Assembly (NCBI GenBank): GCA_947451935.1
Contig: CANGBH010000011.1
Location: forward strand, 1-57,772
Direction of reading: 5' to 3'
DNA: 57,772 bases
Source of the DNA: Chitinophagaceae bacterium
GTDB taxonomy: Bacteria > Bacteroidota > Bacteroidia > Chitinophagales > Chitinophagaceae
Position 1 is the first letter of the stretch. The number at the start of each line of letters is the position of its first letter. Of the stretch, positions 4,567 to 57,672 are shown in pieces. The translations under genes were made by a program, and so were the position numbers. The notes under the pieces were generated by a model. That model was given only the letters and a program-made list of their open reading frames with translations, was not told the origin of the DNA and did not search any database.

Positions 4567-5258
4567 TGAAATTGATCAAATTCTTTTTTTGTAATAGGGA
4601 TAAACTTCACATGATCTCCTGCTTTTAGAAGGCATATTGATTCACTTGATTTATCAAAAATCGTTAGTGGTGTTTTTCCAATAATATTCCATCCTCCAGG
4701 AATTTCTGCTGGGTAAATGCCCGTTTGTTTTCCTGCTACTCCAATACTTCCTGCAGGAATTTTCAACGATGGATTTTGTTTTCTTGAAGTCTCTAATTGA
4801 GCAGGCAATACTCCCATGTAAGGGAACCCAGGTATAAAACCTATCATATATACCCTATAAATATGTTCTGAGTGAATTTGTATGATTTCTTCAATACTCA
4901 ATTTTAATACGTTAGAAAGCCAAGGCAAATCAAAACCAAACTCACTATCATAACATACTGGTATTTCTATGGTTTTTGCATCTTGATTGTTTGAGAATGT
5001 GTTAAAGTGATTTTTATTTTCAGTTATGTTTATTTTCTTCTGTAAATGATTTTTAAGGTCATCAATATTGCAATCTGAATTAACATAAATGGTTAAGCTA
5101 CTGTAAGCGGGAACGCATTCGATAAATCCTGGGAAAGGATTGGATTCAATTTCGTGTTGCCATGCAATGACTTGCATGTTGATCTGTTCATCAATTGTTT
5201 GAGAAAATTCGATGGTTATCGCTTGATCATGTATGCTATATATTCTCGGAATGATCAT
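4563..5258 (-). CDS. pxpB: 5-oxoprolinase subunit B (KipI family)
   Basis: About 231 residues from the ATG at 5258. The frame extends five codons further to a GTG at 5273, but the family begins with a motif like PRIYSIHDQAITIEF, which favours the ATG. Family signatures present are IGFIPGFPYMGVLP, RKQNPSLKIPAGSIGVAG and QTGIYPAEIPGGWNIIGKTP. It is the partner of PxpC in the 5-oxoprolinase complex. The gene is 60 bp downstream of mqnC on the same strand and may share its transcript. Confidence 0.93.
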   Translation of the reverse strand: MIIPRIYSIHDQAITIEFSQTIDEQINMQVIAWQHEIESNPFPGFIECVPAYSSLTIYVNSDCNIDDLKNHLQKKINITENKNHFNTFSNNQDAKTIEIPVCYDSEFGFDLPWLSNVLKLSIEEIIQIHSEHIYRVYMIGFIPGFPYMGVLPAQLETSRKQNPSLKIPAGSIGVAGKQTGIYPAEIPGGWNIIGKTPLTIFDKSSESICLLKAGDHVKFIPITKKEFDQFQ

Positions 5259-9118: not shown

Positions 9119-10399
9119 ATGCTCGATAGAAAAAAGGCACCGCATATTAAAGATGCGGTAGAGTACGGAATAGAGTTGAAAAAACCTGATGTGTTTAAGC
9201 TCGACAATGGTGTTTCTGTTTATAATATACAAGCCGGGACAGAAGAAGTGGTTCAAATTGAATGGGTTTTTAAGGCGGGTAATTGGTATGAGAAACTAAA
9301 GAATATTGCATCCGCCACCAATTTTTTAATTAAAAATGGCACATCAACAAAGTCAGCCTACGAGATTAATGAATTTGTTGATTTCTATGGTGCTTATTTA
9401 AATCGCTCATGTTATAATGAAACGGCTGTAGTAAGTCTCCATTGCCTTACAAGGCAGCTTGAACATATTTTACCTGTAGTGCAAGAAATATTTCTAGATG
9501 CATCATTCCCAGAAGATGAACTGAGTATTTATAGACAAAATATGCAGCAAAAACTTGCTGTGAACTTGAGAAAATGCGATTTTATTGCTGGAAGGAAAAT
9601 TGATGAACTCTTATTTGGGGCATCACATCCTTATGGGGTTTACTCTGCAGCAACCGATTATGATGCGATATCAAGTGCTGATGTAAAAAAATATTATAAT
9701 CAGTATTATCGTAATGGACACTGCACCATATTTTCTGCAGGCATTTTGCCTGCTAACTATCAGCAATTGTTGAATACTTATTTTGGATCAATTCCATTTA
9801 ATCAAGTTGAATTAGAAGAGCCCAATCATTCAATCAATCCTGCTCAACAAAAGAAATGGAATATTATAAATGATGACCAAGGAGTACAAGGAGCTATTCG
9901 TATTGCTCGTCCATTCCCTACACGGAAAGACCCAGATTTCCCCAAAGTTCAAGTTCTTAATGCATTGTTTGGAGGATTTTTTGGATCTCGGTTAATGAAT
10001 AATATTCGAGAAGATAAGGGATATACCTATGGCATTTATAGCTTTTTAGTAAATCATGTCCATGCCGGTGCATGGATGATTAGTACAGAGGCTGGTAGGA
10101 ATGTTTGTGAAGCTACAATCAATGAAGTGTATAACGAAATGCAGCAGTTGAGAGAGGGGGATATAGATTCGGAAGAACTGTTGTTAGTTAAGAATTATCT
10201 TATAGGAACCTTGCTTGGAGATTTAGATGGTCCTTTTCAGATAATTGGAAGATGGAAAAATCTGATTTTAAATGGACTTGATGATCAATTTTTTTATACT
10301 TCAGTCAATACAATTAAAAATATTTCATCTGAGGAGTTAAAAGCACTCGCTAATAAATATTTAAATCCTGATGATTTTTATGAGTTGGTAGTTGTATAA
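9119..10399 (+). CDS. M16 peptidase-like partner subunit, zinc motif absent
   Basis: 426 residues. The region equivalent to HxxEH reads IASATNFLIKNGT, so this chain cannot bind catalytic zinc. The substrate-binding arginine-tyrosine signature of the partner chain is intact (FGSRLMNNIREDKGYTYGIY, about residue 290). This is the pattern of the non-catalytic half of an M16B heterodimer. It begins 23 bp after its catalytic neighbour and is very probably made with it. No signal peptide is visible. Confidence 0.9.
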   Translation: MLDRKKAPHIKDAVEYGIELKKPDVFKLDNGVSVYNIQAGTEEVVQIEWVFKAGNWYEKLKNIASATNFLIKNGTSTKSAYEINEFVDFYGAYLNRSCYNETAVVSLHCLTRQLEHILPVVQEIFLDASFPEDELSIYRQNMQQKLAVNLRKCDFIAGRKIDELLFGASHPYGVYSAATDYDAISSADVKKYYNQYYRNGHCTIFSAGILPANYQQLLNTYFGSIPFNQVELEEPNHSINPAQQKKWNIINDDQGVQGAIRIARPFPTRKDPDFPKVQVLNALFGGFFGSRLMNNIREDKGYTYGIYSFLVNHVHAGAWMISTEAGRNVCEATINEVYNEMQQLREGDIDSEELLLVKNYLIGTLLGDLDGPFQIIGRWKNLILNGLDDQFFYTSVNTIKNISSEELKALANKYLNPDDFYELVVV

Positions 10400-56712: not shown

Positions 56713-56752
56713 CAAAAAATCCCTACTCAATTGATTTACAATTAAATAGGGA
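56713..56752 (-). terminator. Strong terminator of the minus-strand tRNA-like RNA
   Basis: On the minus strand a 14-bp stem (arms 56752-56739 and 56733-56720, two G-U pairs) with a 5-nt loop is followed by six T residues and TTTTTTG. It lies 11 bp beyond the 3' end of the tRNA-like element on its strand, which indicates that the element is transcribed as a separate unit. Confidence 0.88.
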
Positions 56753-56762
56753 CTTAATAATG

Positions 56763-56932
56763 CTGTAGGGGGAGGAGTCGAACCTCCACGAGGCAGTTAG
56801 CGATAGCGCAAAGTTGAGTGGTCGACCCTGGTCGCTCAAATATTGCTATTTAAGCGGCTCTACACTATGTTTATCCTGTTATCCCCACCCCCGAGACAAG
56901 AGGGTATGTCTGCCAAATTTCATCACCCCACA
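56763..56932 (-). ncRNA. tRNA-like RNA with an expanded variable region
   Basis: 170 nt on the minus strand. The 7-bp acceptor pairs TGTGGGG (nt 1-7) with CCCTACA (163-169), with one G-U pair and discriminator G. A T8, a short D stem with AAATTTGGCAGA loop (leucine-type) and an anticodon-like stem CCCTC/GGGGG around the loop TTGTCTC (anticodon position GTC) follow. The T arm GGAGG-TTCGACT-CCTCC is canonical. About 100 nt sit in place of the variable arm, with a 9-bp hairpin closed by GCAA (nt 78-99) and further possible helices. CCA is not encoded. It has its own terminator and a promoter box. tmRNA motifs are not seen. Confidence 0.65.
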
Positions 56933-56949
56933 ATTTTAAAGAGCGGAGA

Positions 56950-56957
56950 CAAATTTA
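56950..56957 (-). promoter_or_regulatory. Candidate -7 promoter box for the tRNA-like RNA
   Basis: TAAATTTG on the minus strand, the same 8-mer as in the respiratory operon promoter, lies 17 bp upstream of the tRNA-like 5' end. Transcription would begin a few bases before the acceptor stem. A -33 TTG at the right distance is not evident. Confidence 0.5.
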
Positions 56958-57065: not shown

Positions 57066-57533
57066 ATGGCCGGAAAATTAAATCTTGACAAACTAGACCT
57101 CCAAATCATCCAAATCATGATGGAAGATGCCGGTATTTCATATGCCGACCTAGGTAAACAACTCTTCGTCTCCGGTGGCACCATTCATGTCCGCATAAAA
57201 AAACTACAAGAAATCGGCATCGTTAAAGGAACAAAGTTAAATGTAGACCTAAAGCTGCTTGGATACGACATCACCGCATTTGTAGGAGTCTTCCTGGAAA
57301 AAAGTTCTCTCTATGATCAAGTTGCAGAAGACCTAAAAAAAATTTCAGAAATCATTAGACTGAATTATACCACCGGAAACTATAGCATGTTCATTGAAGT
57401 CGTTGCAAAAGACATCAATCAACTTCGTTATGTACTGCATGATGAACTTCAAAAAATAAAAGGAATCGAACGCACCGAAACATTCATTTCACTCTCTGAG
57501 AGTTTCAATAGGAATGTGATGGTAGCGAGCTGA
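57066..57533 (+). CDS. Lrp/AsnC family transcriptional regulator
   Basis: 155 residues. An N-terminal helix-turn-helix (LDKLDLQIIQIMMEDAG, VSGGTIHVRIKKLQEIGIV) is followed by an alpha/beta RAM ligand-binding domain (FVGVFLEKSSLYDQVAEDL). Such regulators respond to amino acids as dimers or octamers. The targets cannot be deduced; the neighbours are the tRNA-like RNA on one side and a membrane protein on the other. Codon use is more G/C-ended (for example gacctcc, gtcttcctgg) than in the surrounding genes. Confidence 0.95.
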   Translation: MAGKLNLDKLDLQIIQIMMEDAGISYADLGKQLFVSGGTIHVRIKKLQEIGIVKGTKLNVDLKLLGYDITAFVGVFLEKSSLYDQVAEDLKKISEIIRLNYTTGNYSMFIEVVAKDINQLRYVLHDELQKIKGIERTETFISLSESFNRNVMVAS

Positions 57534-57535
57534 GT

Positions 57536-57672
57536 TAGTTGAAGAGTTGAAGAGTTGAAGGGGTTTAAGATGTTGAAGTCAATTAACTATCTTAATTGCT
57601 GATTTCAATTTTCAAAATAGCATAAATATTTTTGTATTTTTTCAACTCTTCAACTCTTCAACTCTTCAACTA
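57536..57672. repeat. Long inverted repeat of gttgaaga units
   Basis: Arms of 25 bp at 57536-57560 and 57648-57672 are perfectly complementary and built from tandem copies of agttgaag / cttcaact, with an 87-nt spacer. The right arm covers the stop codon (57670-57672) of the partial minus-strand gene. In RNA it would form a long hairpin that may act as a terminator or mRNA-end stabiliser for the two convergent genes. Confidence 0.85.

Follow-up and report, generated by a model that had tools for sequence, protein, structure and literature searches.

In Deinococcus, Thermus, Bdellovibrio and Staphylococcus asparagine is made on tRNA-Asn by AspRS and GatCAB, and the first base pair U1-A72 is recognised by bacterial GatCAB, as stated in the accessible part of PMC4206432. 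According to the same excerpt, this system uses a decoding tRNA-Asn and a non-discriminating AspRS, and some of the genomes concerned also encode AsnRS and GlnRS. RNA-dependent asparagine synthesis itself is already known in this form, on decoding tRNA-Asn. A second system with an asparagine theme is the asnC-asnA locus of E. coli. There, the available portion of PMC8707732 describes AsnC as an activator of asnA, the divergent gene for asparagine synthetase A, with less activation when asparagine is present.

The locus described here lies in a window of 57,772 nucleotides, the whole stretch of DNA that was analysed, from a Chitinophagaceae bacterium. It has in common with asnC-asnA an AsnC-type regulator, a divergent target and the asparagine theme, but here the gene opposite the regulator encodes an RNA and takes the place of asnA. 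Like the tRNA-dependent pathway it offers a U1-A72 RNA on which we predict aspartate to be placed and to be amidated by GatCAB, and AsnRS and GlnRS are found next to GatCAB here as well. The difference is that a separate, apparently non-decoding RNA would take the place of the decoding tRNA-Asn. As this separate RNA carries the Asp anticodon set, an ordinary AspRS should suffice. As far as we searched, a separate non-decoding RNA for asparagine synthesis is undescribed. To our knowledge, tRNA-dependent amino-acid synthesis otherwise takes place on decoding tRNAs. The staphylococcal peptidoglycan tRNA-Gly is a charged tRNA that is withdrawn from the ribosome. The likeness to the RNA studied here would be that of a charged tRNA kept off the ribosome, charging being a prediction in our case; tRNA-Gly is not known to have such an extra domain or the GatCAB pair, and it serves another amino acid with another fate.

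The RNA has a length of 170 nt and is encoded on the minus strand, from its 5' end at position 56932 to G73 at 56763. The cloverleaf features listed in the original prediction, which had left the strand unstated, are all present. In RNA order the 5' half reads UGUGGGG-UG-AUG...GG...CAU-A-CCCUC-UUGUCUC-GGGGG-U and is followed by a 97-nt arm; the 3' half reads GU-GGAGG-UUCGACU-CCUCC-CCCUACA-G, with an encoded C next. The acceptor stem of 7 bp is formed by UGUGGGG (56926..56932, including U1 and G2) and CCCUACA (56764..56770, including C71 and A72) and is 100% paired in 41 aligned sequences. U8 is present. The D arm (56906..56923) with its 3-bp stem AUG/CAU and the central GG is of the tRNA-Leu type, as judged by comparison with the tRNA-Leu genes of the source genome. 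The anticodon arm (56888..56904) has a 5-bp stem and the loop UUGUCUC at 56899-56893, with GUC at 56897-56895 followed by U37 and C38, and the T arm (56771..56787) consists of a 5-bp stem and the loop UUCGACU. Position 56790..56886 is occupied by an extended variable-arm domain. In the alignment this domain comprises covarying stems of 4 bp and 3 bp, a conserved internal loop GAUAAA/GCUAA, a long distal helix, a variable hairpin and a conserved GGGUYGACCAC. A GNRA-type hairpin of 9 bp had been postulated in it. Its loop GCAA was indeed found, but in the minimum-energy fold the stem comprises 10 bp, and many homologues lack the hairpin or have one of other size. The folding energy of the RNA is modest (z -2.11), with 7 of 200 shuffled sequences folding equally well. 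At the 3' end G73 and C74 are encoded (56762..56763), C75-A76 are not. In lacking a full encoded CCA the RNA resembles 26 of the 28 tRNA genes examined in the source genome, and the accessible section of PMC5143459 states that CCA is not templated in most tRNA genes of the Bacteroidetes/Chlorobi group.

Searches against known RNA families did not place the RNA. ARAGORN called no tRNA at the locus, Rfam 15 gave no match at gathering score in the window, and the 8 matches of a relaxed Rfam search were all far below their gathering scores. When the source genome (95.9% complete) was searched with RF00005, 29 places were obtained, none of them on the window's contig. The loci from this search contain 28 distinct ARAGORN tRNAs, including Asp-GUC and Leu UAA/UAG/CAA. 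An RF00023 search likewise located the ordinary tmRNA of this genome on another contig and none on the window's contig, which excludes a tmRNA and agrees with the earlier statement that tmRNA features are lacking. With tmRNA the RNA shares tRNA-like ends and probably stability; it differs by its anticodon arm, and no tag reading frame was noted. A group I or group II intron in a tRNA was excluded as well, since the insert lies between the anticodon stem and the T arm, varies in length and has no Rfam match. Of the outcomes named in the original prediction as speaking against it, a lack of homologues and a match to a tmRNA, an intron or an Rfam family were looked for, and none occurred. No description of the RNA was found in the literature covered, of which most subscription papers are not part, so that an earlier mention is possible; the accessible part of PMC2864571 contains none.

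BLASTN revealed homologues in 57 of 99 genomes, source genome included. Over the family the whole RNA measures between 108 and 210 nt. From 41 aligned homologues RNAalifold recovered the acceptor, anticodon, first variable-arm and T helices unprompted; the D stem was not drawn. A structure of 39 pairs, named from the alignment, is 97.2% paired in these 41 sequences. Seventeen of its pairs changed on both sides, with 116 cells showing such two-sided changes, and none of 500 shuffles attained these values. Slid versions of the structure pair at 44-58%, a control that flatters the structure because it was derived from these same sequences. A chance cloverleaf is ruled out by the RNAalifold helices and the covariation. 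The first variable-arm stem covaries (GGGG/CCCC, GAGG/CCUC, GAAG/CUUC), and so does the next stem of 3 bp (CAG/CUG, ACG/CGU, CGG/CCG, CGA/UCG), after which the conserved internal loop GAUAAA/GCUAA follows. The distal arm with GGGUYGACCAC and the variable hairpin is missing from the shortest copies. Thus, both the homologues and the covarying helices in the insert that had been called for were found. The features of a functional tRNA fold are present, i.e. the cloverleaf helices, U8, A14, the GG in the D loop and a T loop UUCRA; U8 and A14 occur in 191/191 cellular copies, and the T loop deviates in isolated copies. The alternative of an unusual tRNA or an undescribed class, offered in the original prediction, is borne out by a tRNA-Leu-like family that has homologues and covarying helices and no match in Rfam 15.

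The letters of the loop were counted in 104 distinct copies obtained by BLASTN or with the model. Sets fetched by sequence patterns were not used for these statistics because the patterns fix the loop. The counts are not independent trials, as the copies share ancestry and were retrieved through their likeness to the family. U1, A72, G2, C71, U35, C36, C38, G73 and C74 are invariant (104/104). G34 was observed in 101 copies; the exceptions, CUC twice and UUC once, are of the Glu type, the other substrate of GatCAB. The two CUC carriers belong to one genus and are without GlnRS (f29, genomes G260 and G480; L138:1932-2046 and L139:2072-2186, both on the minus strand). At position 33 we counted U 84, C 12, A 7 and G 1, and at position 37 U 94, C 8, G 2 and never A. 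All 28 tRNA genes of the source genome have A or G at position 37, and 27 have U33. The T at position 37 that had been noted as unlike normal tRNAs is consequently a trait of the family. The marks of a decoding tRNA, U33 together with a purine at 37, are not kept across the family. Further copies agree well with these counts: among 97 additional distinct copies, mostly of named genomes, there was one A1 and one A34. Eighteen distinct viral copies agree at positions 1, 2 and 71-74. They also have the loop GUC with C38, having been fetched by a pattern that contains the loop; three further viral contigs from a pattern without the loop carry GUC too.

These letters were compared with known identity elements. 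In the accessible part of PMC9976931, G73, G34, U35, C36 and C38 are listed as strong Asp determinants, the second pair is given a minor role, G1-C72 and G2-C71 are described as strictly conserved in bacterial tRNA-Asp, and G10 is named as a bacterial Asp determinant. The family carries G73, G34, U35, C36 and C38 of this AspRS set; G10 is mostly absent, with G in 12/104 copies. G2-C71 of tRNA-Asp is retained, but U1-A72 stands in place of G1-C72. In PMC4206432 the determinant of GatCAB is U1-A72, and this pair occurs in all 104 copies. Among the 28 tRNA genes of the source genome U1-A72 was seen only in those for Asn and Gln. The tRNA-Leu genes of that genome have G1-C72 and A73, so the acceptor end and the loop of the RNA differ from those of a tRNA-Leu ancestor. 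With tRNA-Leu it has in common the D arm, the long variable arm and the core tertiary positions; acceptor end, discriminator, anticodon loop and size of the variable arm are different. Judged by its letters, the RNA joins a tRNA-Asn acceptor end (U1-A72, G73) and tRNA-Asp anticodon determinants on a tRNA-Leu-like body. It appears to have lost positions needed by the ribosome, with the synthetase-read loop positions frozen.

Divergent from the RNA an Lrp/AsnC-family regulator of 155 aa is encoded on the plus strand (57066..57533; Pfam AsnC_trans_reg and HTH). Its best NCBIfam model is AsnC with 155.5 bits, below the cut-off of 227 that marks the E. coli equivalog. Of the 166 cellular loci fetched, 126 have a homologue of this regulator divergent from the RNA, at a distance of 122-271 nt (median 152) to the nearest RNA. 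After removal of 8 places reached twice, the count is 119 of 158 distinct loci. No regulator was nearby at the other 39/158 distinct loci, four of which have less than 150 nt of contig on that side. The named loci without regulator are mostly from Saprospiraceae and Cyclobacteriaceae among the matches listed. The other neighbours vary between genera, and the AsnC-like regulator was the sole recurrent one seen at the few loci annotated; ten neighbouring proteins at regulator-less loci had mixed functions and included no second recurrent partner. A dyad TTG N9-10 CAA was present in 57/119 intergenic regions between regulator and RNA versus about 10 after shuffling, and would fit a candidate AsnC site. 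A leucine identity with Lrp-leucine regulation, the first idea drawn from the tRNA-Leu body, was abandoned in view of G73, U1-A72 and the stronger match to AsnC. Downstream of the asnC-like gene, at 57540-57670, repeated units of the type TTGAAGAG are followed by an inverted counterpart.

The promoter box and the terminator of the original prediction are both seen in the sequence. A promoter-like box TAAATTTG (56950..56957, minus strand), which we take to be a promoter element of the Bacteroidota -7 type, lies upstream of the RNA, and TANNTTTG occurs within 70 nt upstream in 101/208 distinct copies versus about 10 after shuffling. The leader contains the element GCTCTTTAA (56936..56944, minus strand), which resembles the rRNA antitermination boxA; GYTCTTT was found at most 45 nt upstream in 45/209 distinct copies, versus about 1.2 after shuffling. 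Downstream, a terminator-like hairpin with a T run is located at 56714..56752 (minus strand). A T5 run within 60 nt downstream was counted in 131/207 copies, a raw count without shuffled control.

Homologues were found in Chitinophagaceae, Saprospiraceae, Cytophagales and 28 IMG/VR viral contigs. Among the matches listed (80 of 119 stretches) the carriers include Chitinophaga, Ferruginibacter, Niabella, Saprospiraceae, Algoriphagus, Cyclobacterium, Echinicola, Dyadobacter, Spirosoma and Emticicia. More than one copy of the RNA was present in 36/158 distinct cellular loci. The window's copy matched model R1 with 183.7 bits, being itself one of the 41 sequences used to build it. A covariance model was run on 395 genomes of the phylum with stricter filters, under which weak members may be lost. 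True members scored from 187.7 down to 89.7 bits, ordinary tRNA genes at most 58.6 bits, and matches of at least 85 bits were counted, the lowest being the one at 89.7 bits. A plain tally of 255/395 genomes was discarded, as it includes ordinary tRNA genes, mostly of 82-86 nt and at most 58.6 bits. By the threshold, the RNA is present in 40 of the 395 genomes; 37 of these belong to the window's class and 3 to another class. Incomplete or redundant rows were dropped from the model sets: 7 from a set of 116 matches (1 cut at a contig end, 4 repeats, 2 weak fragments), 4 from a set of 104 matches (2 cut, 1 repeat, 1 weak) and 9 from the 33 matches in viral contigs (1 cut, 8 weak matches to other tRNA-like genes).

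The viral contigs were retrieved with two sequence patterns. The model matched in 28/28 of them, one match being cut at the contig end, and 18 distinct complete copies were analysed. Twelve of these contigs supplied 20 proteins for a scan; 14 of the proteins had a PHROG match, and together they cover 11/12 contigs. The clearest matches were to a portal protein and a large terminase, seen in two contigs, and to a DNA polymerase in two others; the viral origin of the remaining contigs rests on IMG/VR. No AsnC-like protein is encoded in the examined stretches of 25 viral contigs, and BLASTN against named phages and plasmids gave no match to the RNA. One RNA-carrying viral contig encodes a protein matching an amidoligase PHROG (L276:5255-6700, plus strand). 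The same group of contigs contains other tRNA-Leu-like RNAs of 119-162 nt with the acceptor AGTCAGG/CCTGACT, A73 and large inserts (L273:4343-4504, 4588-4706 and 9980-10112, all on the minus strand; L289:3170-3298 and L291:5951-6099, plus strand). They match model R1 weakly and possibly represent a second oversized tRNA type.

The presence of the RNA was then compared with that of GatCAB, scored by GatB alone. GatB was detected in 314/395 genomes of the phylum sample and in 40/40 carriers of the RNA (37/37 in the class, 3/3 outside), whereas the RNA was found in 0/81 GatB-negative genomes. In the class, 37 of 41 genomes with GatB carry the RNA; counted over the individually named class genomes, 37/4 with GatB against 0/20 without GatB corresponds to 1.7e-12 in Fisher's test, which includes no phylogenetic correction and leaves out 61 further unnamed GatB-negative genomes of the phylum. 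Two of the four class genomes that have GatB and no RNA, G136 and G166, are without GlnRS and thus need GatCAB for Gln-tRNA; G248 and G296 are unexplained. The latter two belong to family f25, have GatB E-values of about 1e-105, weaker than those of the other class members listed, and their GatB was possibly acquired; other listed members of f25 are without GatB. GatB and RNA are jointly absent from G114 and G209 of the window's family and from G100 and G216 of family f23, while the other listed sampled members of both families have both. When the covariance model was applied to the asnC loci of G100 and G216, it gave no RNA match. G114, which shows no AsnA match and no convincing AsnB, may on this ground be an asparagine auxotroph. 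Outside the class GatB occurs without a counted RNA in 270/273 genomes, a number obtained with the stricter filters that can lose weak matches.

In the class, 34 of 36 genomes with both GatB and GlnRS carry the RNA, and AsnRS was over its cut-off in 28/29 carriers tested, the single miss being the incomplete source assembly. GatCAB consequently has no evident decoding role in these genomes. The co-occurrence says little in six carriers (G260, G480, G367, G369, G377 and G434), as they are without GlnRS. AsnB was over its cut-off in 25/29 carriers tested and AsnA in 2/29; with AsnB in so many carriers, the RNA route is rarely the sole source of asparagine. One carrier (G244) has the RNA, GatB and AsnRS, with no match for AsnA and nothing convincing for AsnB.

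Family, structure, invariant letters, adjacency of the regulator and co-occurrence with GatB are computed results. As we read them, the RNA is probably a tRNA that was retired from translation and dedicated to tRNA-dependent asparagine formation, with tRNA-Leu as its likely ancestor. It would be transcribed divergently from the asnC-like regulator and probably controlled by it, and G73-C74 suggests that it is processed like the other tRNAs of the genome, with addition of CCA. AspRS would read G34-U35-C36-C38-G73 and charge the RNA with aspartate, and GatCAB would read U1-A72 and convert Asp-RNA to Asn-RNA. The pyrimidine at 37 and the relaxed position 33 may bar the Asn-RNA from the decoding site. 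Such a loop would be sensible, as a GUC tRNA charged with Asn would insert asparagine at Asp codons. The extended variable arm may, as a guess, dock a partner or hinder the ribosome. Asparagine would finally be freed into the pool or passed on, the least certain step of the scheme. Against this explanation stand the mostly absent G10, the AsnB found in most carriers tested, G248 and G296 with GatB and no RNA, the many GatB genomes outside the class with no counted RNA, the loci lacking a regulator nearby, and U33, which is still kept in most copies. Moreover, the large arm might clash with AspRS, since class II synthetases approach the tRNA from the variable-arm side. More tentatively, and with rather less confidence than in the retirement itself, we propose that the gene opposite asnC is here a non-decoding tRNA in place of asnA, and that AspRS and GatCAB make asparagine on a reusable covalent scaffold outside translation.

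Other explanations have to be weighed against this one. A normal decoding tRNA-Asp whose variable arm has become enlarged could account for GUC at the anticodon position, G73 and the intact T arm. However, this reading is made extremely improbable by position 37, which throughout the family is a pyrimidine or rarely G, by the variable position 33, by U1-A72 where tRNA-Asp has G1-C72, and by the normal tRNA-Asp(GUC) encoded in the genome. Scarcely more credible is a tRNA-derived RNA with a general regulatory role, antisense or protein-binding, that resembles Asp and GatCAB substrates by coincidence. It would give a place to the variable-arm motifs GAUAAA/GCUAA and GGGUYGACCAC, which have no known role in tRNA, but leaves the co-occurrence with GatB unexplained, and positions 1-72, 35, 36, 38 and 73 are invariant while 33 and 37 drift. 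The suggestion of a regulatory RNA in the original prediction is therefore not favoured: conservation falls on the letters of AspRS identity and on the pair recognised by GatCAB, and the presence of the RNA tracks GatB, which points to an aminoacylated and amidated carrier.

The identity evidence would also fit an RNA that, charged with Asp or Asn, serves a non-ribosomal ligase for the modification of cell wall, lipids or peptides, much as the staphylococcal peptidoglycan tRNA-Gly does, rather than the asparagine pool; and with AsnB already in 25/29 carriers tested free asparagine need not be limiting. We regard such a donor as improbable, since no linked aminoacyl-transferase gene was noticed (neighbours annotated at few loci) and a donor for wall modification would be of little use to viruses. 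A decoy or sensor that has kept the Asp and GatCAB identity in order to bind, titrate or report on AspRS, GatCAB or AsnC is a little easier to defend, though still unlikely. The large structured extra domain and the linkage to the regulator gene are in line with it, and viral copies could act on host enzymes. On the other hand, C74 is invariant and the 3' end is entirely that of a tRNA, which suggests that CCA is added and the RNA charged, and a mere binder needs neither both identity sets nor an invariant usable 3' end.

If the RNA is indeed a retired tRNA on which asparagine is formed, this dedicated non-decoding RNA would give RNA a novel part in metabolism. The fact that many Bacteroidota have kept GatCAB beside AsnRS and GlnRS would be explained as well; for some delta-proteobacteria, the accessible part of PMC4206432 considers that such retention may be vestigial. 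For phages, a copy of the RNA would then serve to safeguard the supply of asparagine while they infect a cell, and the capture of the RNA by likely phages suggests that it is valuable at this stage. Should the predicted chemistry hold, the family would represent a new kind of metabolic RNA.
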